A stretch of 64,000 nt of DNA from Tubiluchus corallicola (taxonomy: Eukaryota; Priapulida; Priapulimorpha; Priapulimorphida; Tubiluchidae): NCBI GenBank assembly GCA_030141605.1, contig JAQGDQ010000862.1, positions 1-64,000 of the forward strand. Direction: 5' to 3'. A program made the position numbers and the translations under genes. This document shows, piece by piece, positions 9,221 through 63,649 of the stretch (position 1 is its first letter; the number at the start of each line of letters is the position of its first letter). Under the pieces are notes generated by a model that saw nothing but the letters and a program-made list of their open reading frames with translations, searched no databases and was not told where the DNA came from.

Positions 9221-9230
9221 TGATTTGTTT

Positions 9231-13370: not shown

Positions 13371-14170
13371 CGGCAGTGTGCAGTAAGCCTGACATGCAAA
13401 AACTATCTAACACATTTCTAAGATTCTACGTGAATAAGGGTGGATGGAGAAGGCCAAAATTCGAGTTTTTTAGCTTGTTATTTTTTCGCAAAAATTGGCG
13501 TGTATGAAAACACCCCTGAAGTACTTCGTCAAGGTCTCTGGGGTAATGTTTAGCACACAAATTTCGATATTCCATTTCCGGATTTGCTCGCCTGTAAAAC
13601 TGTGTAATGCTGATTATGATCTTTGTTGTATATTTCTCAGTCTATTACCGTCGCCAAAATGAATAAATAAAAGGTAGATAAACTATTAATAACATTTATG
13701 CATTATTGATTATATATCTATTATTTAACAAATATTTTGTGAGTCTTTTTTCTAGCCTATATCATACCAATACAGATAAATTTTTACACGTTTGCTTGCT
13801 TATCTTTGGTAATTTGTTTAGCAATCAGACGAATAAGTTTAGAATTGCTCGGCTTTGGCAGAGATCTGCATCCTATATATTCTAGTTTTACTATAGAAAT
13901 TAATTGTATGTAACACTATGTGCCATTTTTTCCTGTGCCATTTTATCATACAAAGCACCTGATATTGTGGTTGTCATTGTCGTTGTTATTGCTGTTGCTG
14001 TTGTTATTGTAAAACAAAAACAAAGTCCATTTAACATGACTGTGTAGTAGACATAATCCAAGTACTCATAACTTGTGACAGAAGTTTCTTACACAAGTGC
14101 AAGCATATCTTTGTTACGTGGTGGTTATTGATAGTAATAAATAAATAATGAGAGTTTTGTTTTATCCTTC
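13370..14170 (+). repeat. Family C copy C1
   Basis: It matches 45,368-46,110 over about 750 bp, beginning CAGTAAGCCTGACATGCAAA. It contains TATTACCGTCGCCAAAATGA, TTTGGCAGAGAT, TTATGTGCCATTTTT and a degenerate (GTT/ATT) trinucleotide tract. Other copies are at 18.1-18.8 and 32.9-33.3 kb. It follows family B directly. Confidence 0.85.
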
Positions 14171-37540: not shown

Positions 37541-37822
37541 ATGCGAATATCACCCACCGTTGAACAGCCTAAATGGGGTGAAAAGGTTTTCCCGCCAGCT
37601 GAGCCCGATGGGAAAAATAAACCATTAATGAGGCCATACAGGATCGAGACCTTTACACATTATAATAAATCCAGAAGCAACATTAAATTAATGGTAGACA
37701 AATCAATCACAAAATTTGCACATGACAAAAAACCCACAATGCCAAATCACACCGCACCACACTACCCTCATCAAGTCTACCACACAACACACTACGCCAC
37801 TCCATATAATATTGGTTTTTGA
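37541..37822 (+). CDS. Unassigned ORF downstream of a TATA box
   Basis: This 93-codon frame starts MRISPTVEQPKWGEK. The paralogous module has an ORF at 40,627 starting MPITPTAGRAIN, so the first ten residues are related. The C-terminal part is translated CCACAC-rich low-complexity DNA (His, Pro, Tyr, Thr). No domain is recognised. A shared start after a shared regulatory block gives it slight support; it may be the stub of an old transposon gene. Confidence 0.25.
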   Translation: MRISPTVEQPKWGEKVFPPAEPDGKNKPLMRPYRIETFTHYNKSRSNIKLMVDKSITKFAHDKKPTMPNHTAPHYPHQVYHTTHYATPYNIGF

Positions 37823-39080
37823 TTTTGTCTTTAGAGTGCAAGCGAGAGGGCGCTATTGGAGAAAAAAATAAAGAGAAAATAGTTATCATTTAGTTTGTAA
37901 TCACTTTTTATAGTCTTGTGATTCGTACAGGCATAATTTTGGAATTCAGCAAATAATTTTTAGTTCAAGCAGAAAATTCCGCAAGCGAGCGTGACACAAT
38001 GCTATAATATTTTTTTACAAGTTTCTCTCTACAAAAGTGAATTGATGAAAAGTCTAATGAGAAACATTGGTGTGGCAAAGCAGGTATTAAATATTAAAGC
38101 CTCTTTGTACAATTGACAAAAAATGCAATAGAACTTTGACAATAATTGAGATGACTTTTAACCACTTAAACTCATCAGTAATAACGGTTAAGTACAATCA
38201 CACGCAGCAACAATTTTATTGGGATTTTGCAATAAAACCAATATTAAAAATTGACAATATTAAGTGACAATAAATGTCATTTAAAATAATTGTAATTGCA
38301 CAATAAAGAAAAATATAAACAAGCGAACAGCAGAAAAAATCTTGCATTGATTTTACTGATACGAGATGCAGCCCAATTTATTCACAGGAAAAATAACCAG
38401 CGCACTCATTCACAAAATAGACTAAAATTGGCTACTCACGATGAAAAGCAGAAACTGCGGTTTTCACATTTTCGAGAAAACATCATGAATTTGGCACTTA
38501 AAATCGATAGCAGAAATTAAATTTCACGCCAAAATCTCACAGTAATGCACAAAGTTCTGAAAAATGCTAGAGCACACATCAACGGATTCCGTTATTCTTA
38601 TTTGCCATTAGCAAGATTGCAAGACAAATGATATGCTTCGTAAGTGAGATGCAAATGACATGAACAATGTCACGCTTAGATACTGACTTCTCGAATTAAA
38701 ACATTTAGCGCCAGTTATTTCACTTCGTTTTATGCAGATGGATTTAATTGATTAATAGATCTTCAAGTTTCATGTTTCTTATTAATATTCATGTTTGTTT
38801 ATGTAACGCATCTGTTTCTCAGTTTCATTTCTTTCTCTTTTGGGAAGCATGGTCCATCTTGAAAAACCTGCTGTGGTACGTTTCTCTTCGATTTTGCTAA
38901 AATTTACTAATTATTTTAGCCGATAAACCCAGATAAAAGAGCAGAGTAATATCAAAAAAATGTAAATTTTTTATTTTGTGAAATTCAAAAACCAAAATTT
39001 GGTACAACGCCTGTAAAAAATTGGCTGCAGTGGATATTTGAAAAGGGAAGCTTTAGCAGGATTTCCCCAAAATTAAAAGC
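37812..39080 (+). repeat. Family R1 copy R1b
   Basis: Direct repeat of 9,231-10,515 (GCTATTGGAGAAAAAAATAA to the AGCAGGATTTCC block). Copies differ by scattered substitutions and indels. Confidence 0.85.
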
Positions 39081-39175
39081 TTCTGAGCAGACAAAGTCTT
39101 ATGGGGGCGGCGCCAGGAGAGCAGTAAGTAGGTGGTTTTTTCACCTGACACTTTGACAAGCTAATAATGACTAAT
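38960..39175 (+). repeat. Repeat L copy
   Basis: It matches 48,650-48,960: AAATTGGCTG, AGCAGGATTT, GAGCAGACAAAGTC, GGCGCCAGRAGAGCAGTAAG and GTAGGTGGTTTTTTCACCT. It overlaps the end of R1b. Confidence 0.8.
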
Positions 39176-39889
39176 TGTTGCAAAATGAATACAATAAATG
39201 AAAGTTTTTCTGTAGTTTTTCACAAAATTTGGGTCCAAGTGAAAAAATGAACCAGCTGTTTGTTAAATCACAAAATCATGTACTTCACACTTGTTTCTGC
39301 TTTAATTAAGTTTAGTTAATAAAATTACACTAAAACTTTAGGTAACCAGTCAGTTCTCTTAGAAGAACGTTGTAACGTCCTGGATGTACAGGCTAGTTTC
39401 CCAGTGCATTCAGTTCTCGATTGGTTCTCATCAAGTCGAGCAAAACAGAAATTAACAATGTACTCATTAAGACCATAAGCCTGGCACTAAAAAGTACTAG
39501 TCACTTTCAAGATGTGGCAGTGGCGCCACTAACTACAGATGTGAAAAATTTGAGGTCTAAAATGGTTCAGATGTGTTTGACTGAATGGTATCATTCATTT
39601 TGAGCAAATTAAAAAAAACGAGAAACTTTTTTATACAATATTTATAAGGAATAAGTTCAGCTTTAACGAGTCTGAAATTAGTCATTCGCAAAATCAAATT
39701 CGAAAAGATTATTATCCCATCTTTAAACAATTAACATGCTCAAAGTAATTAAATCAGATAATCGTAGCATTCACAAAATGGACATTCTCAAGAGAAACAC
39801 TGAAAAATGCGTAAAGTTTTAAGCAGTGTGGGCAGGCTACAATGCAATAATCACAATTACAGTTACTAGCCAAACCCTGCAAAAATTAA
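39176..39889. other. Nothing assigned
   Basis: No gene or named repeat recognised; a 60-codon open frame at 39,421-39,603 is not convincing. Confidence 0.4.
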
Positions 39890-40245
39890 CATAAATCCAC
39901 AAAGACACAACATTACACTGTATCACACCACACATAACATATATACCCAACACACTATCCACATCACAGCACCTGCACCATACCACACTGTCTGCAGCAC
40001 CATGCTGAACCCATCACACTGCATGCGTCATGCCATTCAACATTCAACACACATTACGATGTCTTACCCACCACACAACCCAGCATGCTATAACACACCC
40101 ACAACACCACCTGCCACACAGCATGCCACCCACCCACAATTCACAACTTAACACCGAACACGCCACACCTTCCACAGCGTGCTCAGTACATACTACGTCA
40201 TAAGGCACCACGCCAAACCAACCACACCACATGGTGGCCATGATG
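39890..40245 (+). repeat. CAC-rich, G-poor degenerate tract
   Basis: Irregular CACACC, CCACAC and ACACAAC units make up about 350 bp with very little G on this strand. A shorter tract of the same kind lies at 37,735-37,805. The 126-codon minus-strand frame here is a by-product of this composition. Confidence 0.75.
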
Positions 40246-40394
40246 ACGACAATGGTGATTTTGGTTGTAACAATTACCATGGTGACACCTACAATACCAA
40301 TGCTGGCAGCACAGCAGTACCGCGAAGGTTGATACTGTTTGACATGGCAAATGCTATTAGATCCAATTAGATCAATATAATGAAAGGGTGTTCC

Positions 40395-40660
40395 ACGTTT
40401 TTGCAAATTGTTCCTTTTGATCATAATGGAGTACCATTGTAATGCTTCATTATAAGAGCCAGGAGCAGCTTCTATTGAAGTAAAATTATACGCAGAGTGC
40501 CATGGGAATGACGTCAGAACGCCGGCTTTTTCAGTCGAAGCCCGTTTCCTGTTCTTTCCAAAGAGCTATTGATCTTATTTCCAATGCTGGGTCCAAGAAA
40601 AACGGTCACATGGCACTCGCAGGAAAATGCCTATAACACCCACCGCTGGAAGGGCTATCA
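40395..40660 (+). repeat. Second copy of the CRE module
   Basis: It shares CAAATTGTTCCTTTTGA, AAGTAAAATTATACGCAGAG and TGACGTCA (40,509-40,516) with 37,201-37,560, and ends in an ATG (40,627) with ACACCCACCGCTG after it. It lacks the TATA box. Confidence 0.6.
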
Positions 40661-41310
40661 ATCCGTTACCAGCACCGTTTCAAGACCGTTTCCGTTCTCT
40701 AGAAATAAGAGATATGAATTTCGCAAAAAATGGAGCTAAAAGGCTATTCTCGAGGTTTTTGCTCCTGTTCCTCCAGCTGTGCACGCGTAATTATAAGACT
40801 TATCAAACACCACCAAAAAGTTTAAAGAGTCAGAGAACGTATATATCTTGTCAAACATGCTGCAGTACGATTCTCTTTGTTTTTGCCAAAAGTTTGCGAT
40901 TATTTTAGCCGATCCAGTTAAAAGAGCAGAATATCATCAGGAAAACGTAGATTTTGGAAATCGTGTGGAAACGAAAAACGAAAATTTTGAGAAAAAGCAG
41001 CATGAAACGTTTATGTACAAAAGTAGCTGCAGTAGAGAACTGAAAGGAAATCTGTGGCAAAAATTAATAGCTGAAGTGTCACATGACTTTTTAAAGCAAA
41101 TTGTAAGATGTTAACCCATTAGTTTAAACATATCAGCTTAGGTGTGCAGGCAAAATGGCATAGCCATCATCACAGCTGGAGGTTTGCATTTTTTGCCATC
41201 AAACAGCATAACTGAATACAATACTGACGCCACCTATCTTCTTGAACCACGTGACGTGGCCTATGTAAAAAACTGGTTTTACATCTATTTAAAAAGCCAG
41301 GTGCTGTCAG
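40661..41310 (+). repeat. Diverged R1 end and repeat M copy
   Basis: 40,870-41,100 is a diverged relative of 10,300-10,500 (TTTTGCCAAAAGTT, GAAAACGTAGATTTTGG, TGCAGTAGAGAACTGAAAGG). 41,120-41,310 is repeat M (see 32,700). Confidence 0.55.
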
Positions 41311-41829
41311 CTACCAGGTAAAACTAGCAAATAAGTTTGATCAATAGTTATAATTTATAATAGTTGACGTGATTTAAAACGTGATATGAAAACGTTTCTG
41401 ACGTGATTTAAAACTTAAGATTTTGCATACAATATATTCAAGATTTACAGAATTGGACACAGAAAAAAACGCCATATTTTTCTTTGAAAGTTCTAATTTT
41501 TTGCTCTATTGATTTGACTTTGCTTTGAATGCACAGCGACTGCAATTCATAAAGAAATTGCTATTTGTAAATTTCAACCTGTGATCCAGTTAAAGGCCAC
41601 TCAACCTCGGCGCAACTCTGTCGTGTTTCTTTCTCTCGCACAGCTCGTAGAGAAAACAAGAAAAATTGGCAATAAATAAATAAATTAATAATTTTTTTCG
41701 ATCCTCATTTTTCAGTCAGAGATCAGCCAGTGTCAGCATGACTTGTGCTACTTGATTTGTCTCATCAATACTTTTCATTTGATAAATTAGTACCTAGTTT
41801 CACCTGGTTGACTCCTTCAAGACAGTGTG
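41311..41829. other. Nothing assigned
   Basis: No gene or named repeat recognised. Confidence 0.4.
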
Positions 41830-42480
41830 CATTTTCTGCACCTTGCGTGGGTTCAGGAGAAACTGCTCTCACTAAGCAGCGATCACGATATATTGTAGCT
41901 GTTACAATAGTTGCAATTTTGTACAGTAGATGGCTGTCTGGTATTGCCCGATACTATTCGGCTAATTGGAGCAGTTATATTATTACAAATCTTACAAGAT
42001 TGCATATTAATTTTGATTTTAAATGCGTAATACTAAATCTACCTACTGTCATTTACGTAATTGTTAGTGACTACTGTTTGTTAATTATTGGTTTTTCTAT
42101 GGTAACACATTGTAGGTGTTGTATTAGTTTCGATTTTGTACAATAGATGGCTCACTGATATTACCCAAAGCTATTCAGCCAATTGGAGCATCTGCCATTG
42201 CTGGTCATGCATGCTGTCAATCACTCTTACCCATGAGCTATCATGTGCGACGTTGCTTTCATGCACGCATCGCTACACTCACTCCTCTAGCATGTATGCG
42301 AGTGCACCATGTCTTTACCACACTCTACGCAGACCCACATGTTTTGGTAAATTATATTCTCCATCCATGTACACTAGCCAAAAATGAATGCGGAGAAATG
42401 TCCGTTTTCATGCTAATGTTCGCTGTTTTGGTACAAAAGTATTACTGAAAACCCCAATGGTGCGAATAAATTTTGCAGAC
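41830..42480 (+). repeat. Family A subtype plus A copy A7
   Basis: Starts with the end of family C (GAGAAACTGCTCTCACTAAG), then the A subtype (GTACAGTAGATGGCTGTCTG) and the full A core (42,120-42,390). It is nearly identical to A1 from 42,330 on. Confidence 0.8.
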
Positions 42481-43230
42481 ATTTTCATAGAAACCTGAGC
42501 TGGTAGAACTGCCTTATTCTCTGTTTCCATTTTTCTATGTACTGTAAAAAATAACATAATATATGAAATTGTCACAGCAGCCACCCATCCATTTAGCTGC
42601 GAGTATCTGTAGTGCATAACTTCCTCCTTTGCTACTTATCAAGTAAACCTCTCAACTTCTCCATTATTGTCAATTAGCGACAGAAAATCAAAAGCAGTTT
42701 TGTTTGAGAGCTGGAAATAAAGTTTTGTTATCAAAGCGCAGGTGTGTTCTATTATTTCTGTTGGAAGTAATGCTTGTCATAATATATCGCCCTGGGAAAC
42801 GTGTTTTGTTAAGATTGAAAGGAGCTTTTCAAACTGTTTGTATAGCAAATATTGGGCTAAAAGCTTTTCTTGTGATAATAAAGGGTGAAACCGCCTAACA
42901 TTAATTGCTGTTTGGATAAGATGGAGAAAGTCTTAAGTGCTCAGCCACCTGAACAAAAGACTCTTTGTAAGACGAAGAAAGTTTTAAATGCTCAGCCACC
43001 TGAACAAAGGGTTCTTTATATGACGGAGAAAGTTTTAAGTGCTCAGCCACCTAAACAAAAGGCTCTTTACAAGTGGAATTCTAAGATTCAAGTTCTGTTG
43101 TTGACTTTGAGCTGAGATAATTGCTGAGAGTGGTTCTGAAGCAAAGAAAATATTTTCCCACATTTTAACATCTTTTGTAAATTACACTCCCCCGAATACC
43201 TGGGAATGACGCCAGGGAAAGAGTTAATGG
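42480..43230 (+). repeat. Family B copy B5
   Basis: It is collinear and nearly identical with 11,950-12,770, including the junction, the CGCCCTGGGAAACGTGTTTT block and the minisatellite. It ends at CAGGGAAAGAGTTA; the long tail is missing. Confidence 0.85.
42920..43072 (+). repeat. 51-bp minisatellite, 3 units, in frame
   Basis: Same 17-residue unit as at 12,417, with one unit fewer, within a 76-codon open frame (42,885-43,115). Confidence 0.9.
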
Positions 43231-43307
43231 CTAGCGGCTTGAAAAACTCCGATTCGTCCTTGAACACATACGCATTATCGATCGTTGTGTTAAATTAAGT
43301 GAACTAC

Positions 43308-43338
<31 letters not shown>

Positions 43339-43499
43339 CGTGTGTGCGAGTGTATGAATATTGAATTCATGATGAAATCATGATCCAACATTACCCTTTA
43401 GCTATTACATTGTTACATTGTTTATAATACATACAATTTACATGTTTTATTTTTATTTTCCGTAAGTTCTTCTAATTTCAGAAAAGTTTTCCTCCGTAG
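43231..43499. repeat. (TG)n microsatellite and flanks
   Basis: The (TG)n tract spans about 43,314-43,350. The flanks have no recognised feature. Confidence 0.85.
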
Positions 43500-43736
43500 T
43501 CATGCAGCCAAGTCATTCGGTATCAAGGATAGTATCTGTTTAATTGCGTCAATTTGACAAACCCTCTCATAGGTAGAAACACCGAGAGCTTTGTGATAAT
43601 CTCGTAGGCTATTATCCAGCCTGCGACCGAGTTGAGTGTAGCTTTCATTTTTCTGTTTGCCAATACTTCGGAATCTTTCCAAGTACATATCAGGACTGAG
43701 AATGTAAGCACCATTTCGCAAACTGTCTGTTGGCAT
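43500..43736 (-). CDS. Gag/SCAN-like fragment
   Basis: A 78-codon frame from ATG reads AYILSPDMYLERFRSIGKQK, then ESYTQLGRRLDNSLRDYHKA, then a segment ending LSLIPNDLAA. The pattern of a YxL-P-x-x-Y-x-x-x-FR start, a Tyr-rich helix and a closing LPxD-like motif is that of Gag capsid C-terminal/SCAN-type domains found in LTR retrotransposons and proteins derived from them. No protease, RT or LTR was seen nearby, so it is a fragment or a domesticated exon. The frame is undamaged within this stretch. Assignment is by pattern only. Confidence 0.5.
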   Translation of the reverse strand: MPTDSLRNGAYILSPDMYLERFRSIGKQKNESYTQLGRRLDNSLRDYHKALGVSTYERVCQIDAIKQILSLIPNDLAA

Positions 43737-44570
43737 TGTTTATTTACATTGTTTTAATTGTATGTCTCTATCACTTTAGCTATTTTAGGACCGTTTTTAA
43801 TGTAAATGTTTACTGTTTTGGTGCTAACGTATTACTAAGATCCAGGTCTGATGGGAGAGGGGCGTCGGGGGTCAGTGACCCATGGACCAGCAGTTTTGGG
43901 GAGAGTCGAGAAGATTAAGGACCAGGGTTTTATTTAAGCCAGGTCTGTTAAAAGTTTTTTTTATTCATAAAATCTACGTGGATTAACCATTTCTTCATAT
44001 CTTTTCCTAGTAGTTGAAATAACGGAAAATTGCCGAAATAATTACAAAAGTTGTTGATGATATGAGCCTTCATATTCTACGTCCACTGGTGAGTGACAGC
44101 TTCATGTAGTTTTGCCACTTGAAGTGGGGTCCTTAATGCTTGCTGTCCTGGGGCATTTTTTGCAGACATTTTCATAGTGACATTTGCAGTTTCTCTGTAA
44201 CAAAGGCGAGCCCTTTTACTGGCACCACAGAAATCGATGAAATCATTCAGTTGATTTTTTATCTGTTGTTTTTCTTGTCCTACAACTGTTTCAACTATAT
44301 ACATCATACGAAACAATCCTGAGAATTTTGATTTTTTGTGAAACCCCGTGAATTTGGACAATAAAAAATATTAAATCTCTGACAAAGGAGAATTACAAAA
44401 TGTCAGTAAGTTGCAGATGTGCTAATACCGTGTAGCACAATTTAGTTAAAATGACCTTCAAATGGGAATGTTTAAAGTAGCTCTAATTTTCAATATTTTG
44501 CATGGGAAACGTAGTCCTACTCCAAATCATTGGTGATTATTATATGCCTTTCTTAACAGCAGCAAAGTGT
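43737..44570. other. Unassigned, with a 94-codon minus ORF
   Basis: The minus-strand frame 44,361-44,077 has no recognised family and opens at TTG. It overlaps short matches to the A/B junction (TTTTGCAGACATTTTCATAG, also at 42,472) and to 20,340, so it is probably a repeat. 43,840-43,920 is slightly GC-richer. Confidence 0.35.
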
Positions 44571-44860
44571 TTGCTTTCCATCTTTTGTTAACTTTTTCCC
44601 TGGAGTTCCAGGTAGGCAGCTTAACCAAACAAAAAGCTTCTACATTCCATTGACATTCGTGTCTGTATTTGCTCTAAAGCTTTTGTTAACTCTTCCCCAG
44701 GGTGTTCCAGCTTAAGCAAACAAAAAACTTTCTGCATTCTATAGAAATTCCTGTCTGTATTTGCCCTCCATCTTTTGTTAACTCTTTCACGGGGAGTTCC
44801 AGTTTGGCAGCTTAATTAAACAAAAAAGCTTCTACCGTCTATTCATAATATTGTCTGTCT
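44571..44860 (+). repeat. Tandem repeat, 3 units of about 95 bp
   Basis: Units begin at 44,571, 44,669 and 44,761. Each has TTTTGTTAACTCTTTCCC-like text, a GGAGTTCCAG-like box, a TTAANCAAACAAAAA box and a CTGTCTGTATTTGC-like end. Divergence between units is about one in six, so the array is old. Confidence 0.85.
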
Positions 44861-45367
44861 TTTAACCCATTCTTTCCAGTATTTAAACAGGGCGCAACTA
44901 GTTTACTTAAGATTTCTGAAGTATGTGAAAAGATTTTCTGAGTTTAACACAAAGAAGTAAAACTGTTCGACTTTCTTTAAAAACACATATAGACGTATAG
45001 AGTATAAAGGGTATTTGAAAGATGTAATGAATTTGTTGGGTGCAACTACTAGAAAAATATAGATCTTTTCCACTTCTTAATTACGAATTACGTTTACAAA
45101 TCGTATTTGAGAAATTCAATTCACCCAAAGTTTAAACTTCTTTAAAAATGGCAAACGAGAGAATGACATGAGAAAATTGGCATTGGAACACTGCTAAGGT
45201 AAAAAATGGCAAATGAAAGAATGGCAATGGCAAAATGGTATACTTAGTAAACTATGTGTTTGAATAAAGGTTATTGTGGGGATAGTAATTTTAGTTTTTT
45301 TACTCTGCCTTGGAAATTTTGCTTCAACACAGTCTGTTTGTATAGTTTGTTTTTCGCCAATTACGGC
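44861..45367. other. Mostly unassigned
   Basis: 45,030-45,130 resembles 20,625-20,740. 45,150-45,367 is the segment that precedes family C and aligns weakly to 17,600-17,840. No gene recognised. Confidence 0.4.
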
Positions 45368-46110
45368 AGTAAGCCTGACATGCAAAAACTATCTAATATA
45401 TTTCTAAGAATCTACCTGAATAAACGTGGATGGAGAAGGCCAAAATTCAAGTTTTTTAGCTTGTTATTTTTTCGCAAAGCTTGGCGTTTATGAAAACATC
45501 CCTGAAGTACTTCGTCAAGGTCTCTGAGGTAAAGTTTAGCACACATATTTCGAGATTCCATTTTGAGATTTTCTCTCCTGTAAAACTGTGTAACGCTGAT
45601 TATGATCTTTTCTTAGTCTATTACCGTCGCCAAAATGAATAAATAAAAGGTAGATAAAGTATTAAGTATTATTTGTGCATTACTGTTTTTAAATCTATTT
45701 AACAAACAAATATTTTGCTAACCTGTATCATACTAATACAGCTACATTTTTGTATATTTGTTTGTTCATTTTGTGTTAAATTTTTTTAGCCAAAATAAGC
45801 AGATGAATAAGTTTAGAATTGTTCAGCTCTGGCAGAGATTTGTTTCCTATGAGTGCATTCTAGTTTTATTATAGAAATCAATTGCATCCATGTAACATTA
45901 TGTGCCATTTTTCCCATGCCATTTTTATCTGCACCGTTTTTCTTGTGCAGAGCTGCTGCTATTATGGTTGTTATTGTCATGGTCATTACTGCTGTTGTTG
46001 TTTCTGCTGTTGTTATTATTGTAAAATAAATACAACGCCAGGCTAAGTGTGACGATGTTGTAGATATAATCCATGTACTCAAATTTGTGACACAAGTTTC
46101 TTACATACGT
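45368..46110 (+). repeat. Family C copy C4
   Basis: Direct match to 13,370-14,120 from CAGTAAGCCTGACATGCAAA through CACTTCGTCAAGGTCTCTG-like text, TATTACCGTCGCCAAAATGA and the GTT-rich tract. It is one of the two full-length copies of the family. Confidence 0.85.
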
Positions 46111-46427
46111 TCAGGCATTTTTTGCCTTTAAAATTATTAAAAATGACAGTCATTTGATCTATTAATAGTTATTTTGATTTAAGCCAATAACAATAGACTA
46201 AAAATGGTGATAAAATGGCAAGCTATAAAATCTACGTAGCATAAAAAACTGCGCAAAAGGTACAGTACTTTAGAGACGGCTTTGTACAGATCAGCATAGC
46301 ATGCATACTAAATGTCCTAAATACTTTAAAAAATTATCAGCAGTTAAAGAATGAAGCACATTTTTTGCTTTTGTTGTGTTTTTAAAAAAGTCGGACTTTG
46401 TTTTTTTGCACATGACAAAGAATGTTG
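46111..46427. other. Nothing assigned
   Basis: Left flank of the piggyBac element. A TTTTTTGCACATG block at about 46,403 resembles the reverse complement of the right flank near 48,608, so the element may reach a little further out. Confidence 0.4.
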
Positions 46428-51060: not shown

Positions 51061-52855
51061 AGGCTGCATAACTGTTTTAGTAAATTGCTGGGATGAAAAT
51101 AAATGCCAACAAAACCCATTTTTATTTTTATATATGTTTTATATAAATCTTTTTATTCTTATCAAAACGTGTCCTTACCCCAGCAGATGTATTATTACAA
51201 CCTTACTTCAGTGATTATTGCGTATTAATTTTTATTTATAACGTAACACTTAATCTAACCACAATCGTTTTTCACTCAATGTGTTCTTCTTAATCTTTAC
51301 TGTTTGTGTTAAAATTATTGTTTTTTTTTGCTAAAAATTTTTGCTGTTACTATTTTTCTTCCTGCTATTCGATTTTTGTATTTTGTAAAATAAATTTATT
51401 TCGCTTACTCTTAATTCAGTTTGACTCATGGGTAGAACCATGCTGTCTATCAGTTTGCATTCAACAATTTTCTTATTATATGGTTAAAATTTTTATAGGA
51501 TTTTGCGTTGTACAACCATTTACAGTGTACCATTTCTGATTCACTTACTTTTGAAAGCAAAAACTCTCGCAGTTTTTGATGCAGTCGGAAACTAATAAGA
51601 AATTGTTCCACTTATCTGGAGGAGGACTCGAAAGCTCAATGCTCCTTCCTCCTCCACACAGTAACTCGTTTAGTTTATATATATTTTTTTCAATGTAATA
51701 ACATTTGTATATATGTTTAAGTGTTTCTGTGGAATAAATTCATAATTAAAAAATTCATAATTCAAATGTGACGTCTATCCAATTTATTATCTGTCACCAT
51801 GTATTAAGTGCAGTAAGTATCGTTTAGCATAAAGTTTAATCTTTGTGTTTGTTGTTTTATTCTTACAACTAGAAACGAAACTTAGATCTTACAAACACAC
51901 CAAAATGAATCATTTCTTTCTAATTACACTAACCGAACTTCGAGACATAACCTTTAGATAACGTATAAAATAAATAAAAAATATTTTCAGTCTAATAGCT
52001 TTAAAAACCGCAAAACAACAACTTATTATATCAGTGAAGGATCTCAAAAGGTCAACAGGAGTGTGGGTGGGAGTGGGATTTGTTCGTTCTTATTTTTTGT
52101 TTAGGTCATATCAACAGGATGTCAAGGTGCAGTTTATTACTTTGTAGATTCTAATAATTATTGACTTCAAGGCCAAGTTATGTAGTTTTGTTAATTGGGA
52201 TTATCATGATTATTACAAAAGGAAAAGAATGCAGGACGAGGAACAATTACTGCTGCATTGTGTTTAGGAAACTCCACAATAATTTTGTAACCCGCAATCA
52301 TTGGTATAATAGTCAGTTTCATTGTACATTCGGATCAACAAAAAACAAAGCATTTTGCTTATGAATGTTTTAGAATTATTTATAACTGTTGTGTATGTAC
52401 TGTAAATAATCAATAAATTTACTACTCTTTATAAAAAAACAAAAAAGAAAGAAACTACCCGAGTCAAGGTCTGTCACCCATAGCTTAAAAACTTGAGTAA
52501 AAGGTTGAATGCCTTTTATAGTATCAAAATATATTATTTCTTTCTTTTAAAAGTTTTCACCCTAACGGGTCTCAGGTTAGCAGCGGAAGTTTATTTGAAC
52601 AGTTAAGTGAAAGTTCCTGAAAGGAATAATAATCTATTGTTGAGACTTAAAAGAGCATTCAACGTATTATTCAAGCTAAAGCTGACAAGTCTCGGGAGCG
52701 CTCTCTCATAATTTAGGACTTAAAAACTTGGTTTGCATAAATTGTATTTCAAAATTAGTGCATGTGGATAGTACATAAGGGTCAAGGACATTCATTATAC
52801 TATTTAATTATAGGATAACACTCGTGTCCTGATTGACAGTAAACATACTCATAAT

Positions 52856-52860
<5 letters not shown>
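51061..52860. other. Mostly unassigned
   Basis: 51,160-51,490 is a copy of the family A leader. The rest (51,500-52,860) is AT-rich with no gene, no match elsewhere in the window and no exon that fits the fringe-like gene. Confidence 0.45.
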
Positions 52861-52916
<56 letters not shown>

Positions 52917-52936
52917 ACACACACACACACACACTA
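52861..52936 (+). repeat. (CA)n microsatellite
   Basis: A long, almost pure CA tract with one GA interruption, presumably in a downstream intron of the fringe-like gene. Confidence 0.95.
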
Positions 52937-53203
52937 AAATTATTATTTACACACGATGTCACGCATGGTAGATAAAGGGAAATATCAAAATCTCTCCAGG
53001 GTGCAAGTCTGCAAGGGGAAGTGAAAATTTTAGATTAGTACAACATGCCATTACTGCATGTATTACTGTCACGCGATAAAAACCCTCCTCACCCACCTGT
53101 GAGCTGAAGTACTAGTTCAAAATCAAGAGTTTCCAATCATGCGCAGTTTGTCAGGAAGGTGCAAAAAGTTAGAACAAACCTTTAAATTCCTGGTTGTTCT
53201 TAC

Positions 53204-53306
53204 CTATTTGGTTGACGAAAAAAACCAAGAAGTTCTGCCTCCAACTTGCAGCATAGATGCCAGTGCAGATGACTAGGTGGACAGTTTGTGTTGATAACAT
53301 GTTCTC
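53204..53306 (-). CDS. fng: Fringe-like glycosyltransferase, third recognised exon
   Basis: This 103-nt exon sits between the acceptor TGTTATTTTAG and the donor AG|GTAAGA. With the last base of the previous exon it reads GEHVINTNCPPSHLHWHLCC, then KLEAELLGFFRQPN. It matches the part of fringe proteins where an INTxC motif and a CCKM-like motif precede the catalytic DxD. Positions expected to be Ser-Arg after the His are changed here, so this may be a divergent paralog. It ends two bases into a codon. The exon that should follow, with the metal-binding DxD, was not found downstream. Confidence 0.75.
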
Positions 53307-53922
53307 CTAAAATAACATGAACTGTGTCAAATAAAACAGGTGCTAATATTTCTGCGTTGTCTAATATAGTCATTAGAGGATTAAACGGAGGATTAAACGA
53401 ACAAACAAACAAGTAAACAAAAGAATAAACAAGAAGGCAACACGTAATAATTAAACAAACAAATGAATGAATGAATGAACGAATGAATGAATGAATGAAT
53501 GAACGACTAGAACAAGCGAACGAATGAATGAGTAGATAAATGTGACACAAGGATAAAAACAAATACATGTAAGTGACGAATAACACTAGTAAAATGTTAT
53601 TCAAACTAGATTTTATCCATGTTTTCTAAATTTTGACAAGAAAAATGATAAAAAAATAAGCGATTCTTGGACAAAAATTTTGCAAAAACTAATAAACAAA
53701 AACGTCTATAAAGAATAACAACCTGTTATTTTAAGCTCATACCTGGTCAGAGATGCGCCTAAAAGAATTGGACTAAGATAGTATGTGCAATGGAAGACAG
53801 TAAATCTAAGTATTGAGGGAAATGGTGACTGTAGATTGAACTTTAGATTTTTGATTAGCATTACAAGAAACTCTGTATCTACGGCAGCCTAAAAAGTTTT
53901 TGTACTGATGCTGTATTATACT

Positions 53923-54009
<87 letters not shown>

Positions 54010-54183
54010 CTCTTTCTTTCGTAATTCGTAAGTGACTGTCGCTACTAATGCTATTTTAATGCAGCCTCCTTCCAGTAACCTCCTAAAAAATCGCCCCACT
54101 CATATGGCATGTTGTCTTTTTCTTCTGTTACCTGTGCTGAGGAAGCTGAACAATTGCAATTGTGCTAGAATATGAAAACTTAC
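53307..54183 (-). other. Intron of the fringe-like gene with microsatellites
   Basis: It is an 877-bp intron. It holds an (AATG)n tract (53,461-53,505), an A/C-rich AAACAAAC stretch before it, and a long (TC)n tract (53,923-54,005). The open frame that seems to run through part of it is an artefact of these tracts. Confidence 0.65.
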
Positions 54184-54232
54184 CTGCTAATTCTTGAACT
54201 TCCTCATCATCTGCATCCGAGAAGAAAAATGT
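54184..54232 (-). CDS. fng: Fringe-like glycosyltransferase, second recognised exon
   Basis: This 49-nt exon has the acceptor GGAATTTACAG and the donor GCAG|GTAAGT. It reads TFFFSDADDEEVQELA plus one base, and corresponds to the conserved T-x-F-F-[ST]-D strand with the acidic residues that follow it in fringe proteins. The preceding exon ends on a codon boundary and the next one supplies two bases, so phases agree on both sides. It is too short to be found by ORF length alone. Confidence 0.8.
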
Positions 54233-54549
54233 CTGTAAATTCCAATAACAATGAGTCGACAATAAATTAATAATGAAGAAGAATTGCAATTATTGAAACA
54301 TAATATCTTTCTTAAACATTTTAGTTTGTACATTTTAAGCCCCTTTAATAAGCTTACCTACGTATGAACAGCAAAAAGTAGTCTTGTGTAAGTAGACTAA
54401 ATCTGAGTAGTCATGGATTTAGTGATCACAGTGAAACTACGCCAAAACTGGTCGGTAAATGCACGGATGACTGCTTGTAGAAAACTGCTTCTGGGTGGTT
54501 TTATGTGTCATACGGTATTGCTTCGTCAAGGGACTGAACGTTGCCAAAT

Positions 54550-55035
54550 CACCTCTCTTGATCAATGTCTTATCTCTTCTGCTGATCAGTATCTTGTCTC
54601 CGCTACTGCTCAACATTTATCTCTTATGCTGGCCATTACCTTATCTCCTCTGATGTTCAGTGTCCATTTTCCTCTGCTGGTCAATGTTTTAGCTCCTCTG
54701 CTGGTCAATATTTATCTCCTCTACTAGTCAATAACTTATCTTCTGTGCATTGTCAATGCCTTACCTCCTCTGCTGGTCAGTGTCTTACCTCCTCTACTAG
54801 TCAATATCTTATCGCCTATGCTGGTCAATGCCTTACATTCTCTGCTGGTCAATGCCTTATCTCCTCTGATGGTCAGTGCCTATTTTCCTCTGATGTTCAA
54901 TATCCAATCTCCTCTGCTGATCAATGTCTTTTCTCATTTGATGGTCAATGTCTTACCTTCTCTGCTGGTCAATGTCTTTTCTCCTCTACTAGTCAATATC
55001 TTATCGCCTCTGTTGATCAATATCTTATTTCAGAA
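54550..55035. repeat. 24-bp minisatellite, about 20 units, intronic
   Basis: Units of the type CTCCTCTGCTGGTCAATGTC plus a TTAT/TTAC end repeat through about 480 bp with variants. The period is a multiple of three, so plus-strand frames stay open (54,413-54,727; 54,745-55,053; 54,818-55,102), giving eight-residue repeats such as QCLTSSAG or SPLLVNVL. It lies inside the 1,026-bp intron (54,233-55,258) of the fringe-like gene, on the opposite strand to its exons in reading sense. Confidence 0.85.
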
Positions 55036-55258
55036 AATTGTCCAGAACAATGAGGATGACACTACTGCCATAAATATTTACAAAAAGATGGCTTTCTATT
55101 AAGTGCATTAGTGCATTTATAAGTGCTGCTTACCAGCTTGCAGGGTACCGAGCTGCATAAAAATACCATATCATACCATACCATGATATACCACATCCAC
55201 ACTGCAACAATTTCATTCCTCAATAGAAAAACTTGCACAATAATTATGCTGGATTTAC

Positions 55259-55464
55259 CTGGCTTCTGGCAGTTTTGAACCAAGTATTGAGAATAACCTT
55301 TAACCTAGAGTGATGCAATGAAGCTGCTGTCTTTACACTGATGTACACATCGTTCAATTTTACAGGAAAGGAATTGAGTCTCGTCTGGGTTACGTCTGCA
55401 AGCGATTGAAATGATCTTTCGTTCTCCACCATTTTTGCCAGCAGATCTTGTCCTAAATTGTTGC
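55259..55464 (-). CDS. fng: Fringe-like glycosyltransferase, first recognised exon
   Basis: This exon of about 206 nt ends at a CAG|GTAAAT donor on a codon boundary. It reads NLGQDLLAKMVENERSFQSL..., then LNDVYISVKTAASLHHSRLK and VILNTWFKTARSQ. The D-V-[FY]-I-[SA]-V-K-T...H-x-x-R-L...TW pattern is the hallmark start of the fringe catalytic domain, which adds N-acetylglucosamine to O-fucose on Notch EGF repeats in the Golgi. The acceptor is taken as TTTTTCTAAATCGAG at 55,465; the frame stays open to 55,567, so the exon could be longer. The preceding residues would be the stem region. The exon with the signal anchor was not found. Confidence 0.8.
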
Positions 55465-55567
55465 CTCGATTTAGAAAAAGAGAACATTTAAACCGCTTTA
55501 AGAGAACTTTCTTGTGCGTTTGGTCATTCGTCTGGCAGAACCATTTTGCACGAAGTATAATTGTACA

Positions 55568-55919
55568 TTACAAAAACGCTACGATCAATAATGCGCGAAC
55601 ATAATAAGTTTCGCATCGTTTAAGGCTTCAAGGCCTTATATATTGTAATAGGCGTTTTATATTTTTTAGGTAAAATATCCTAAAGTTAGCATGGCGAATT
55701 ACACCATTCGCAACTCGTCCTATGCCCGTCTTTTCAAGTAATGTTTTACCATCTTAGAGACTATTCTCGTGAATTAAAGCCATTTGTGTAATTTTAGAGA
55801 AAATTCGAGTTGCGGAAGAGACATGTTTTACAGAAAACTATTCCATGCTTATTAAACTCTTTGCAACCTATAGGTTTCAAATAATATAATAATTTTTTGC
55901 CGATAATTTGAACACAAAT
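55568..55919. other. Nothing assigned
   Basis: It would hold the upstream intron of the fringe-like gene if the gene extends this way. No exon recognised. Confidence 0.4.
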
Positions 55920-56520
55920 CGATTTAGTGACATTTTACCCAGTTTATTAAAAATAATAATTTTAGTTTTCTTAACATTCACCGTTAATTACCACTTGGAA
56001 ATTATCAATAGAATAATATTGAGAACAATGTTGCGCTGATTACGCAGCCTTGTTTAAGGCCTACAATACTTTTGAAAGGAATAGGTGACCCATCTATAAT
56101 TTTTATAGAGTAATCATAATTACTTCTCATGTCAGTAATAATTGCTAACGTTTTACCTACAATTCCATACCACTGCATTTTACAATATAGAGCCTGATGG
56201 TAGACAGAGCCGAAATCCTTTTTTATAATCAACAAAACATTTTACAGTTGTCATTTATTACAAAAAATCTATTATCGATAATAGTGTTCAATGCTAGGAT
56301 GTAGTCAATTTCATGTGCTCCTTTCTAAAGCCAATTTTTGTTTGATGAATAACATTTCTGTTTTCTAGGTATTTACTCAAACACTCGAACAATTTGCAGA
56401 AAAAAGTCGAGATAGTTATTTGCAGATAATTAGCAGATTCGCTTTTAGAACCTGTTTTGTGCAAGGATACAGTAGTCTAAAACTTTCTGAACACCATGTA
56501 GGATATTTATTTCATGAGTA
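55920..56520 (-). pseudogene. Reverse transcriptase relic lacking the YADD block
   Basis: On the minus strand, KIGFRKEHMKLT (near 56,315) and FVDYKKDFGSVYHQALYCKM (near 56,225) are motif A and its flank, followed by IVGLKQGCVISATLFSIL. The sequence then jumps at about 56,005 to LTVNVKKTKIIIFNKLGKMS. The block with the catalytic YxDD between them is deleted. Several frame breaks are present. It is a non-LTR (jockey/CR1-like) element fragment within or upstream of the fringe-like gene. Confidence 0.65.
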
Positions 56521-57903
56521 AATTAGGTTAGTAACATAGTAGTAACTTAGTAATCAACTTAATAACATAAGGAGCCATAATTGTTATCGTAACTTTAATG
56601 CACACTTTAGAAATGACTATGTGTGTTAGTTATTTATTTATTTATTTAAAGCTTTGTCAAATCGTAGCTGGAATGAGAGGCTTCAAAATAAACGATTCGC
56701 TTGCCCTGTGAAGTAGTCGAAATTTATCAGATTCACATCACATCACCACATTCATCAGAGCCAGTTTATCCTATAGGCTAGCATATGCTGCAGCCTAGGG
56801 CTCCTCAAGCTTTGCTAATATTTTTAAATTCTTTGCTAATATATGTGCTAATTTGTTGGTATTTCTTATATAAATTATAAGATATATAAGTTATATAAAC
56901 GTTGCTGAAATTTCCACGTGTTAAAATATGCAAAGCGGGCGCGGGCGAGTCAGGCGGTGGCTCCCTCTTAGCCTACGGCCGGCAAAAGGTCATAATCCGG
57001 GCCCTGAATATAACAATTTTTGGTGGGAAATTGTTGCGGTTCTTCATTGTGATTACGGAACAGGATTCTTCCGCAACATGGTAAATTAATGGCTTTGGAT
57101 TATTCTGCTCAATTTTATAAGAGTCTGAAGATTTACTATAAACTTTGTATTTGGTTTTTGCTTTATGTGATGAGCAATTAATCTGCATTTAATCCTATAT
57201 TACTTGGATAAAACGTACACAATATCATATAACATACTTACGTATAATAGATAATCCTAAAAACAAAATTACAATTAAGACTAGAGTAACCTTCCGCCGA
57301 CCAGCATTCCGCTCTCCGAATTGAAATGACGTCATGTTAAGTTGTTAATCATCATTATAACCGTTTATCGCGAATACCTGCAGCACTGTGGGCAAATGTT
57401 AGCTCATTTGAAACTTCTCAGATACTGACACAACAAATCATCACAGATCAGGAAACAAAACTCCCCAAAACACTAATGCAAGTAGAGAATGTCTTTCTAA
57501 TCGATAATCAATAATATATATTTTGATCAATAATCGGTTATAGCTAAATGCTAGTCAACTCCTAGCCTTCTGTACTTTCACACGTCGATGTTTTTTCCAT
57601 TTCTCTCGCCAGCGATTTCCATGTTCTAGCTTCAACTCAACCAGAAACTGACCCTATGGTCAGCGGTCAAACCTCAAGCAGCTGAGCTCATCGTCCATAC
57701 AACCTATATGAATTATCACGCGCGAATGTAGTTACCCGCTACGAATATTTTAAGCTTGATGAGTTCCTGCAGTAGCAGCAACAACTATGCTTTAAAAACG
57801 TGCAATTTTACATGACTTAATGAAATCACTACGCAAACAAACGGCAAATCACACCAGCTATGATAAGAATAAATGGTCGAATATACCTACCTTCCTGCTA
57901 GGA
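56521..57903. other. Mostly unassigned; GC-richer patches and a CRE
   Basis: 56,935-57,005 is GC-rich and ends GGGCCCTG. 57,290-57,730 is GC-richer, with several CpG sites and a TGACGTCA palindrome at 57,327-57,334; it could be a promoter or first exon of the fringe-like gene, but no coding frame supports this. A short (TTTA)n lies at about 56,630-56,650. Confidence 0.4.
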
Positions 57904-58536
57904 CAGTGGTTCCCAAAGTAGGGGTAAATTACCCCTCGGGGTAATATGGTTTTTTTGAGGGGGTAACGGGCACCCCTCTGAAAATTTTTAAAACTTCGCT
58001 TGGAATGCATTTTACGTAGTTTTCTTCTTGAAGAGACTGCCTCCGGCAGGCAACATTGTGTCATGGGGTCCATCATTCGCACGTTCCCATGATCTCTGGT
58101 GCTATCCTGGGGAGAAGTCAAAGTTCATGATTGTTTCTTTGGTTTCTTCTCTATCGACATTTCTGCACAGAGTTTAGAGTTTAGAGAAAGCTAGGACCCA
58201 GGATTGAGAAACTGGCGTCCGAAAAACAGGCTCATCCGTCCCACTAACTGAGATTTTGTTGTTGTCATCAATTTCTTCTTGTTTTCGTTTGTTCGAGTAA
58301 TAATTACTCGAACGAACCTGCTCACTCAGTAATGAGCAGGTTCAGTAATTGTAATTCTTGTTTTGGCAACAATACAACAACACCTGGAAATTTATTTATG
58401 TCACGAGCAAACATAAATAATTTTTCTTGCTTGAGGCATATACGTGTGTTTCCTTTTTGAGTTGGAGAAGTAGTACTAGGTGGCGGGTAATGGACACGAC
58501 TGGGTTTCCCGAGTTGGGTAAGTTTGGGAACCACTG
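57904..58536. mobile_element. Non-autonomous hAT element, 633 bp
   Basis: The left end is CAGTGGTTCCCAAAGT and the right end, reverse complemented, is CAGTGGTTCCCAAACTT. The 8-bp target duplication TGCTAGGA is perfect (57,896-57,903 and 58,537-58,544). This is the pattern of Charlie/Tip100-like hAT elements. No transposase frame is recognised; two short minus-strand ORFs inside are not convincing. It carries two adjacent hairpins near its middle. Confidence 0.93.
58291..58343. repeat. Two adjacent perfect hairpins in the hAT element
   Basis: 58,291-58,313 is a palindrome with 11-bp arms around one base (GTTCGAGTAAT arm). 58,314-58,343 has 11-bp arms (GAACCTGCTCA) around an 8-base loop. They touch each other without a spacer. 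Confidence 0.9.
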
Positions 58537-58708
58537 TGCTAGGAGGACTTAATGTGGAATATGTGAAATCATTTTTAAAAAATCACTGTCACGTACTTTT
58601 AAACGCGTGAAAAACGTATTTCATAAACAAAGCAGATTCCCGGGGTGATGATATTCATACAAATAATGTATTTGTCGCTTATAAATAATTTTCTAGTAAA
58701 GCAGTTAA

Positions 58709-58918
58709 ATAGGTAACTAGGTAGGAAGGTAGGTAGGTACATAGATAAGTAGGTAGGTAGGCAGGCAGGTAGGTAGGTAGGCAGGTAGGTACATAGGTGA
58801 GTAGGTAGGTAGGCAGGCAGGAAGGCAGGCAGGCAGGTAGGTAGGTAGGTAGGTAGGTAGGTAGGTAGGTAGGTAGGTAGGTAGGTAGGTAGTTAGTTTT
58901 AGGTAGGTAGGGAGAGAG
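58709..58918 (+). repeat. (AGGT)n / (GTAG)n microsatellite
   Basis: About 210 bp of GTAG units with scattered GCAG, GAAG and GTAC variants. The purest part is 58,836-58,891. Confidence 0.95.
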
Positions 58919-59274
58919 ATACAGACAGACTTACAGATACATGAATAGTTCTTTTATTAAAATCAAATTATAATTTTGATGTTCTATAGATGTAGTACAT
59001 AGAACATCTGAGTACATAGATGTTCTATTTTTGGCAATTTTCGCTTGGAAAACTGCTGACGCAAAGCCATTGTTGAGATGCTCAAGCAGCTTTACTTACG
59101 CCGCTTCTTCTATGTTATGATGTTATAGATAAAGAAACGCTTTATTTTTTCTCTGTATTTTAAATAGAAATATTTTAAAATGTTTAATTATTTTTCCCTA
59201 AATTTTTGCAATTATTATTTTCTTCTTGTTACTTTTTTTGATTTTTATAAAATTCAGGTGTGTTTTCACCAAAT
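58919..59274. other. Nothing assigned
   Basis: A 12-bp ATAGATGTTCTA-type motif is repeated near 58,980-59,030. No gene recognised. Confidence 0.4.
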
Positions 59275-60679: not shown

Positions 60680-61699
60680 TCATCTGTCAGCCGGCGAACA
60701 CTTGATAACGTCTCTCCAGGTGTCTCTGTCTTCATACGTCTTCTCCTCCTCCACATCCACCAGTCGGATTCCTCTCCTCGCAAGCGCCTCTCCAACTCCA
60801 TCAAGCCATCTCTTCCGGGGCCTTCCCACTGGTCTTTTGCCTTGCGGCTTCCATTCAAGATATTTCTTTGCCAATCTCGTGTCGTCCATCCGCTTAATAT
60901 GCCCATACCACCTCAACTTGCTCTCCTCAATCTCTCTCAAGAGTGGTTTCACTGAGAGGTCTGACCTTATCTGTTCACTTCTGAGTCTGTCTATCCTTGT
61001 TCCACCCCTTATAGTCCGAAGAAGTTTCATTTCCGCTGCCTGTAGTCTTGAGGATGTCTTCGTTGTAAGTGACCAACATTCAGCTCCATATGTTAGTATT
61101 GGTTTCAATATTGTGTTATATATAGTTGTCTTGACTTGCTTGGGTATGCACTTCTCTTTCAATAGGGGATACATCATCATAAAATTTCTTGTATATTTCT
61201 CAATCCTCGCACTCAACTCCGTTTCCTGAATATTTCCTTCATCTACAACCACCCCAAGGTATTTATAGGAATTTGCCTGGTGCAGCTTCCTGTCTTCCAT
61301 ATACACATCAAATTCCTCTCTTCTACGGCTTATGTGCATGAACTCAGTCTTTCCCTTTGCCGTGTTTATGCTCATTCCATTATTATTCATTGTTGATAAC
61401 CATGAACTGGCCACACCCTGCAGTTCTTGTATGGTGTCCAACATCACCGCCACGTCGTCTGCGTAGGCGAGGACTTGCTGGTTTGGTCGTGGGTTTGTAT
61501 CTCTGATGCACTTGTCCATGAATATGATATATAGGAGCGGGGACAACCCGTCTCCTTGTCTTACACCTGCTTCGATGTTAAACCAGTCAGTCTCCACGTC
61601 TCCTTTTCTTACCTTACTCACACTATTGCTATAGATGCTCTTGATAACTCTTATCAGCTTTTTGGAACAGAATACGGCTGCTCCGACATAATCTTCCAA
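60680..61699 (-). pseudogene. RTE-like protein, RT palm and C-terminus
   Basis: The open frame continues the RT after the frameshift: LIRVIKSIYSNSV, GVRQGDGLSPLLYIIFMD, LAYADDVAVML with the catalytic Asp pair, and YKYLGVVVDEG. The thumb reads LKPILTYGAECWSL. The end has KLRWYGHIKRMDD and GRPRKRWLDGVG, typical of CFDP2-like retroelement proteins. The last residues read RDTWRDVIKCSPADR. The frame is uninterrupted for 330 codons, so decay is recent. Confidence 0.8.
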
Positions 61700-63649
61700 A
61701 GCAGCTTTCTTGGGACACGGTCAAAAGCTTTCTCCATATCAATGAAGAGAGCAAATTTGTCCCTTCCCCACTCCCAGCTTTTCTCCATTATCATCTTCAT
61801 CACAAACACAAGATCTGATGTACTTCGTCCTGGTCGAAATCCGTACTGCCATTCTCCCAATCTAGCCTCGACATGTGTACGAAGCCTCCTCTCGATTATA
61901 CTACTGTATAGCTTTCCACAGTGGGACAATAGGGAAATGCCCCTAAAATTTTCACAAAGAGCTTTATCTCCCTTTTTAAATATCGGGCTAATGACTCCTC
62001 TCTGCCACTCTGGTGGTATAGTTTCTTGTCTGTACGCGTCCTGCATTATGGTTAGCAGGAGCTTCTGCGCCTCCTCCCCAGCTTCCTTCACAACTTCTAC
62101 AGGGAGGTCATCATCTCCTGTTGCTTTACCTCTCTTCATCCGTGTTATGGCCCTCGAGATCTCAGCTCCCGTGATGTCCTCGATGAGTTCATTCGGGTCG
62201 ATCTCTAGGTCCACATCCACTTCCAATTCTTCACTTCCTCGTACGTTGAGCAAATCATCAAAGTATTCTCTCCATCTGTTAGCGATGTCATCTGGTTGCA
62301 CAAGCAATTGTCCATTTTGATCTTTAATTGCGTAGGTTTGTTCTTTAGCACTACTTCTGTAATTCTTTGTCATTGAGTAAAGCAATTTCTTTGTTCCTGC
62401 ATGGTCAGCCTTCAAATCCTCTCCGATGTTTTCCCACACTCTATTCTTTTCTTCTTTCTTTACTTTTTCAGCTCGATTCCTGGCTAGTTCGTATTCTCGT
62501 CTATCTTCGGGTCTTCTTCTCTTCATCCACTTTCTAAACCATCCCATCTTCTCTTTAACTGCACTCTTTACTGCTTCCGTCCACCAAGGTGTAGTTTTCT
62601 TCCTTCCTTGATACGACTTTTTAGAGCCCAATGTATCTGCTGCGGCAGATGAAACGATTTCTTTATATGTTTCCCAGTCTCTATTTTCAGCTTCCACTAT
62701 TTTGTTGTTTATAACTTCTCTCATAGTGTCGGCAGTTTCTGAGTCTCTCAATTTTTCTATATTAAATCTCTGTTTCCCCTTCTTTTTCGGTAGCTTTTCT
62801 GTTTTCCATGTCAGTGTTGCTATCACCATTCTGTGCGTGGAGTCCATAGACAGCGATGGCACAGCACGCACATTCTGGAATATTCGCTTGTCTGGGGTCA
62901 AAAAGAGATCTATCAACGACTTGCTGACGTACTGCTGCGCTTCGCTGTTCCAACCGTAGTACGTCCATTTATGACTATCTCGGTGTTTATAGAAGGTATT
63001 CATTATAGCCAACCCGTTTAGTAGACCATAGTCAATTATCCTGCCTCCCTCCTCATTCCTGTCGCCAACACTAAATGCTCCGACCACTGTTTCAACGTGA
63101 TCTCTCACACATCCAATGTGTCCGTTGAAGTCTCCACAAACTATTAATTTTTCTTTGAATCTTGCTGTATCTGTGACATCTTGTAGGTCCTGGTAAAATT
63201 GATCTTTTTCCTGGGATGATCTTCCACTTTGCGGGGCATAAACCTGAATTAAGGAAAAGGCCACTGTCTTTGTCTTGATGGAAATACCAATGATTCTCTC
63301 TGAGACACTATCAACCTTCTCCACATAGGGAGCCAGATCCGGTGAAAGAACTACTCCAACACCGTGCCTCCCATCATCCTGTCCGCTGTAAATCAGTTTG
63401 TAGTTTTCATGCAGGATCTTTTCTCCACTACCCCTCATCCTGGTCTCACTGAGACCAACAATTGCGAGATTCCTGTCTTTCATTATATCCACCACCTCTT
63501 CCTCTCATCGTTGAAATGTTAATTATTGCAATTTTGAATTTAGTTGCCTTTCTACTCCTGGAATTCATGGCACCGGAGATTCTTAGCACCCCCTGCCCAT
63601 TTAAGGGCTGCCGGGGACTGGGGGCCGTTGTTTCAGTTGTGTTCGCCAT
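61654..63649 (-). pseudogene. RTE-like protein, endonuclease and RT fingers
   Basis: The start is taken at ATG 63,649 (MANTTETTAPSPRQP). It reads KIAIINISTMRGRG and then shifts frame at about 63,495, where VVDIMKDRNLAIVGLSETRM continues. Endonuclease motifs are SETRMRG, VCGDFNGHIG, KSLIDLFLT and DSTHRMV. A basic linker (RKWMKRRRPEDRREYELARN) and the RT follow with GVISPIFKKGD, GFRPGRSTSD and motif A FALFIDMEKAFDRVP. The frame is lost again at about 61,690, inside the RT palm. 613 residues are open without interruption. Confidence 0.8.

Follow-up and report, generated by a model that had tools for sequence, protein, structure and literature searches.

A probable rearranged 5′ partial duplicate of a divergent fringe gene, likely a pseudogene, in the priapulid Tubiluchus corallicola

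The DNA analysed here, a 64,000-nucleotide stretch of the Tubiluchus corallicola contig JAQGDQ010000862.1 (C373, positions 1–64,000 of the forward strand; hereafter the window), carries four minus-strand exons which, judged by their sequence, are a genuine piece of an animal fringe gene. With good confidence we read them as a rearranged 5′ partial duplicate of a divergent fringe gene whose fuller sister lies on a second contig, C454, and whose catalytic half has been lost in the copy, making the latter a probable pseudogene. As the window begins at the start of the contig, the gene runs toward the contig end.

Four exons from the start of a fringe gene

The exons and the rearranged DNA around them are listed in Table 1. 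Exons 2–4 have AG acceptors, the donors GTAAAT, GTAAGT and GTAAGA and an open frame, and introns 1–3 measure 0.9–1.8 kb. An earlier note on this DNA had proposed these last three exons, and its junctions 55,259/54,232 and 54,184/53,306 prove exact by sequence, with consensus splice sites, phases of 0 and then 1, and no stop, whereas the first of its exons starts at 55,452 rather than at 55,464. Exon 1, absent from that note, is added here: its ATG is preceded by an in-frame TAA four codons upstream, its hydrophobic stretch, MTSFQFGERNAGRRKVTLVLIVILFLGLSII, has a mean hydropathy of 2.74 over 17 residues, and its phase-1 end fits the exon 2 acceptor. It is the sole match on either strand of the window to the combination of an ATG frame of at least 20 codons, a mean hydropathy of at least 2.4 over 17 residues and a consensus donor in phase 1. 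The copy is thus predicted to carry a type II signal anchor ahead of the fringe domain, as is expected in Golgi glycosyltransferases. Left unspliced, exon 4 meets a stop one codon past its end. Intron 2 houses a minisatellite (54548–55028) of 24-base units with a 96-base higher period, which yields long plus-strand open frames.

Table 1. Coordinates of the fringe exons and of the duplicated and rearranged DNA in the window.
Feature	Position in window	Strand	Description
Exon 1	57,335–57,242	−	Start codon, short cytosolic tail, predicted signal anchor; phase 1 end at GTAAGTAT; 2/94 bases differ from C454 exon 1
Exon 2	55,452–55,259	−	Stem and start of glycosyltransferase domain, DVYISVKT...HHSRL...NTW; acceptor TTTAG; 13/194 bases differ from C454
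Exon 3	54,232–54,184	−	Reads TFFFSDADDEEVQELA; 1/49 bases differ from C454
Exon 4	53,306–53,204	−	Reads GEHVINTNC...CCKLEAELLGFFRQPNR; phase 2 end; 1/103 bases differ from C454
Duplicated block	52,866–58,977	−	Collinear over ~6 kb with C454:353,688–359,331; exons 1–4, introns, upstream DNA
TG microsatellite	52,857–52,934	−	Holds the breakpoint; collinearity with C454 ends
Inverted piece	51,601–52,857	−	1.26 kb of the next C454 intron (C454:349,961–351,219) in opposite orientation; 92% identical

The fringe identity and motif order claimed for these exons earlier are borne out by profile and structure-database comparisons, in which exons 2–4, once joined, match Pfam Fringe at E 1.6e-24 and mouse Manic fringe (PDB 2j0a) at E 5.5e-19. 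The window copy scores 86.4–87.1 bits against the Fringe family (GT31, PF02434; cut-off 21) and covers Pfam positions 3–79 of 250; the other two PDB matches are a designed repeat protein (E 0.0005, none of its stretches passing on its own) and a beta-1,3-glucosyltransferase (E 0.005). Taken separately, the 31-residue domain part of exon 2 matches Pfam Fringe at E 5e-08 and exon 4 falls under the Pfam cut-off (16.1 vs 21 bits). When the 2,870 six-frame open frames of the window (at least 15 aa) were ranked with a two-sequence fringe profile, exons 2, 3 and 4 took the first three ranks (22.1, 10.2 and 8.1 bits in order of rank), the next real frame scoring 4.0. The best reversed-letter control, at 6.8 bits, is a reversed frame of exon 3 itself, so that the shortest exon lies near noise when taken alone and convinces only through the join. 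Identity amounts to 35/79 residues with Manic fringe and 28/72 with a human Lunatic fringe sequence.

Overall, the window copy shares with the Fringe beta-1,3-N-acetylglucosaminyltransferases (GT31; Lunatic, Manic, Radical and fly Fringe) the signal anchor, the stem and the order DVxIxVKT / HxxRL / TW / TFxFxD / TxC...CK, but its domain breaks off once a third has been covered, without the DxD, G-loop and catalytic base exons. Matches to the related GT31 enzymes B3GLCT and C1GALT1 are far weaker than those to Manic fringe: the glucosyltransferase match is that of the window exons given above, and C1GALT1 is matched at E 0.004 by the composite of the sister gene.

The sister gene on C454 and the missing catalytic exons

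The same four exons are found on C454, where 132 of 146 residues are identical to the window copy and the lengths (94/194/49/103), splice sites and phases are all equal; C454 alone continues into the catalytic part of the gene. Its DxD exon follows exon 4 after ~2.0 kb and reads ATWCCHFDDDVYVN (DDDVYVN), and beyond it come a G-loop exon (FAHGGSGFC), an LNDD exon, an FHSS exon and, farther on, a C-terminal exon, the joins up to FHSS being in phase by inspection. The composite of the first eight exons matches Pfam Fringe at E 7e-65 and Manic fringe at E 3.2e-43. A search for an exon between FHSS and the last exon found nothing convincing, and with one exon not located we call the C454 gene fuller rather than complete. 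We infer that it encodes a working O-fucose beta-1,3-GlcNAc transferase.

In Manic fringe, D232 serves as the catalytic base, and the DxD, the G-loop and a C-terminal His are described as well (PMC8233153). On both strands of the window, tblastn with Lunatic fringe, motif patterns and the fringe profile gave no convincing DxD exon. The same approaches gave no convincing G-loop, LPDD or C-terminal exon there either (the catalytic base, D232 of Manic fringe, presumably sits in the LPDD motif), and the best match in the window to the C454 catalytic exons was an unrelated stretch at 23.5 bits and E 0.14. The earlier observation that a DxD exon is not visible down to 49 kb can hence be extended to the whole window. 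In the copy neither the DxD metal-binding motif nor the G-loop, the catalytic base and the C-terminal His region of the Fringe family are recognisable, and its exons on their own do not suffice for a fringe enzyme.

As a positive control, the Lunatic fringe query detects two exons of C454, that with the DxD (E 1.7e-9) and that with the G-loop (E 0.002); comparable exons in the window would therefore have shown, although a very divergent one could escape. We also simulated detection with 45–48 residue pieces of Lunatic fringe from four regions, 200 each, a generous control because Lunatic fringe is one of the profile's two sequences: at 40% identity 193, 196, 188 and 194 of 200 pass 4.4 bits and 182, 186, 178 and 181 pass 8.1 bits, and at 35% identity 159, 156, 137 and 143 pass 8.1 bits. 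A candidate for the next exon at 53,008, with a good acceptor in phase 2, was set aside: it reads RLAPWRDFDISLYLP, enters the TG repeat and is not fringe-like, and related DNA occurs in C454 too.

Duplicated block, breakpoint and fate of the copy

Homology to the fuller gene ends at a breakpoint inside the gene. The duplicated block is firm to 57,903, after which 57,904–58,536 (0.63 kb) has no C454 counterpart and 58,537–58,977 includes a tetranucleotide array. At the other end, collinearity stops within the TG microsatellite, the C454 segment that bears the DxD exon (351,220–353,687) is missing from the window, and a piece of the following C454 intron stands next to the block in inverted orientation. 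Among the 40 of 402 candidates that were scored, no contigs other than C373 and C454 contain the whole of this inverted piece. We rejected a transposon as its origin, given that among the same scored candidates its first ~1.09 kb occurs only in these two contigs and just the last ~150 bp is dispersed; that distal part (51,601–51,764) is a repeat with at least 38 further places. Homology to C454 stops where this dispersed repeat stops, and only unrelated repeats lie beyond. The earlier implication of an intact gene with its DxD exon farther on is not supported, as the contig ends at window position 1 and the inverted piece and unrelated repeats occupy the place where the sister has that exon.

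In the sequence of events we favor, a duplication would have copied exons 1–4, their introns and ~0.6 to 1.6 kb of upstream DNA of a C454-type gene, and a rearrangement in intron 4 of the window copy would have removed the DxD segment and left behind the inverted piece of the following intron, past which repeats would run to the contig end. If the copy were transcribed, read-through past exon 4 would yield a stub of 147 residues, anchored in the membrane and lacking the DxD, the G-loop and the catalytic base.

The main rival, which we consider unlikely, is an assembly misjoin at the TG repeat, with the duplicate being a complete gene whose catalytic exons the assembly lost or merged into C454. 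Such an error would fit a breakpoint within a TG array, a typical misjoin site, as well as the inversion of the neighbouring piece and a contig end in transposon-rich DNA. The inverted piece, however, has diverged from C454 (92% identity) just as the introns of the block have (92–93%), and is therefore not C454 DNA joined by mistake, although it could be the duplicate's own DNA misoriented. Nor is there a second C454-like DxD exon among the Fringe matches of the assembly (32 of 32 candidates scored), a search that can miss short exons. We infer that the breakpoint junction exists in the genome and was not created during assembly.

It is very improbable that C373 carries a divergent haplotype of the C454 locus instead of a duplicate. 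Of the 40 candidates scored out of 192, C373 and C454 alone do hold exon 2, intron 1, exon 1 and the upstream DNA in full, leaving just two full-length copies of the block, as two alleles would. Besides these, C457 has a partial intron-1 match of ~0.5 kb at 75% together with two short segments at 88%; within intron 1, some 60 bases are part of a dispersed tandem repeat. Both flanks of the block nonetheless differ: comparison of 84 kb of C373 with 90 kb of C454 gave 32 alignments, 11 of them in the block and 21 short repeats (73–365 bases, 66–84% identity; 13/21 from one microsatellite). With only short repeats shared outside the block, C373 is not a simple haplotype contig of C454, and the noncoding divergence of 7.3% (over 4,253 aligned bases) would be high for alleles.

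That the gene is intact, with a very long intron 4 and its later exons on another contig, is the slimmest of these readings: in its favor are the open frame, a good donor at exon 4, the end of the contig at window position 1 and the spread over 28 kb of the exons of a conventional fringe gene on C968, but introns 1–3 are short, the sister's intron 4 takes up 2 kb, the 53 kb of the window past exon 4 hold no recognisable next exon, and the DxD stretches of C143, C387, C1089, C1124, C1349, C2208 and C2286 are only 29–43% identical to that of C454, far from a recent copy.

Under the partial-duplicate reading, the fate of the window copy can be approached through its divergence from C454. The exons differ at 17 of 440 bases, so few relative to the noncoding rate that lack of constraint on both copies is rejected (P 0.002), and one constrained plus one free copy, i.e. 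half the rate, fits (P 0.65). The differences are spread unevenly: the tail, anchor and stem carry 12 nonsynonymous and 0 synonymous differences, near the full noncoding rate (13.6 expected), and the glycosyltransferase part has 5 in 252 bases (3 nonsynonymous, 2 synonymous), where a window copy under no constraint at all would be expected to show 9 (P 0.098). The domain value lies below the half-rate expectation, albeit not significantly, so some constraint after duplication is possible; the overall dN/dS of 2.2 rests on only 2 synonymous changes. Against a loss of function, frame and splice sites are kept in all four exons. We nevertheless regard the window copy as probably a pseudogene. We give little credence to the idea that it is transcribed from the duplicated upstream DNA into a Golgi-anchored stub, bearing the start of the fringe domain but no active site, that would compete with the C454 or the conventional fringe or serve as their decoy; on that view, selection would have driven the changes in the tail, anchor and stem while the domain part was conserved.

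Fringe relatives and repeats

A Pfam Fringe search of the assembly (343.5 Mb in 2,344 contigs, C373 measuring 86,937 bases) gave 20 exon matches on 13 contigs, all 32 of its candidates having been scored; the matches do not include exons 3 and 4 of the window. By exon order, three contigs besides the window hold fringe genes: C968 (conventional), C941 and C454. Those on C968 and C941 follow the same exon order as the window copy, are 36–52% identical to it over the matched exons, and have the conventional motifs HFDDDNYVN and FATxGAGxC. The suggestion of a divergent paralog made in the earlier note agrees with this picture, in which the genome holds a conventional, a second and a divergent fringe gene and the window copy is a close duplicate of the last. 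The parent, C454, is the divergent one of the three. Outside the window, the 13 contigs with Fringe matches yielded no second DxD exon that closely resembles the one on C454; the closest stretch beyond C454 is that of C941, at 54% identity over 37 residues. Of the remaining matched contigs, C716 and C1826 had nothing that matched the catalytic exons of C454 at E 1, and C143 and C1124 are of a WFLKADDDTY type that we take to be C1GALT1-like.

Automated annotation would report a truncated fringe in the window, which should not enter the tally of Notch-modifying enzymes of this animal. The C454 parent is of more interest than its copy: its G-loop (FAHGGSG) is altered, as are LNDD (instead of LPDD) and FHSS, which points to the divergence of one fringe paralog in this lineage. 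Of the bilaterians covered by a published survey, Caenorhabditis and Helobdella lack Fringe; it is present in the sponge Amphimedon and not in Trichoplax (PMC2770060).

The window also holds mobile elements and other repeats. A non-LTR retrotransposon at 2733–6435 (minus strand) has an endonuclease frame, a reverse transcriptase and an RNase H (Pfam), split over more than one frame; a second, at 60680–63504 (minus strand), has an endonuclease and a reverse transcriptase with a frame split near 61,650–61,720; and a reverse transcriptase fragment lies at 35889–36296 on the plus strand (Pfam RVT_1, E 4.3e-10). In search of related animal DNA, the reverse transcriptases and fringe exons of the window were also compared with bacterial and viral contigs, where no relatives came up, and Rfam (gathering threshold) and tRNA searches of the window returned nothing. 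A dispersed repeat of ~0.2–0.6 kb occurs in both orientations at 11.3, 24.7, 26.4, 30.7, 33.5, 42.1, 50.5 and 59.3 kb and at loci L029 and L030; it is dense on C373, flanks the fringe block on both sides and has no match at E 1e-8 in the other loci compared. Finally, the segments 9230–10498, 11562–12768 and 13380–14106 recur in the same order, at 78–85% identity, as 37812–39072, 42093–43226 and 45366–46118, so that the regions 9230–14106 and 37812–46118 look like an old internal duplication or a repeat-rich domain.
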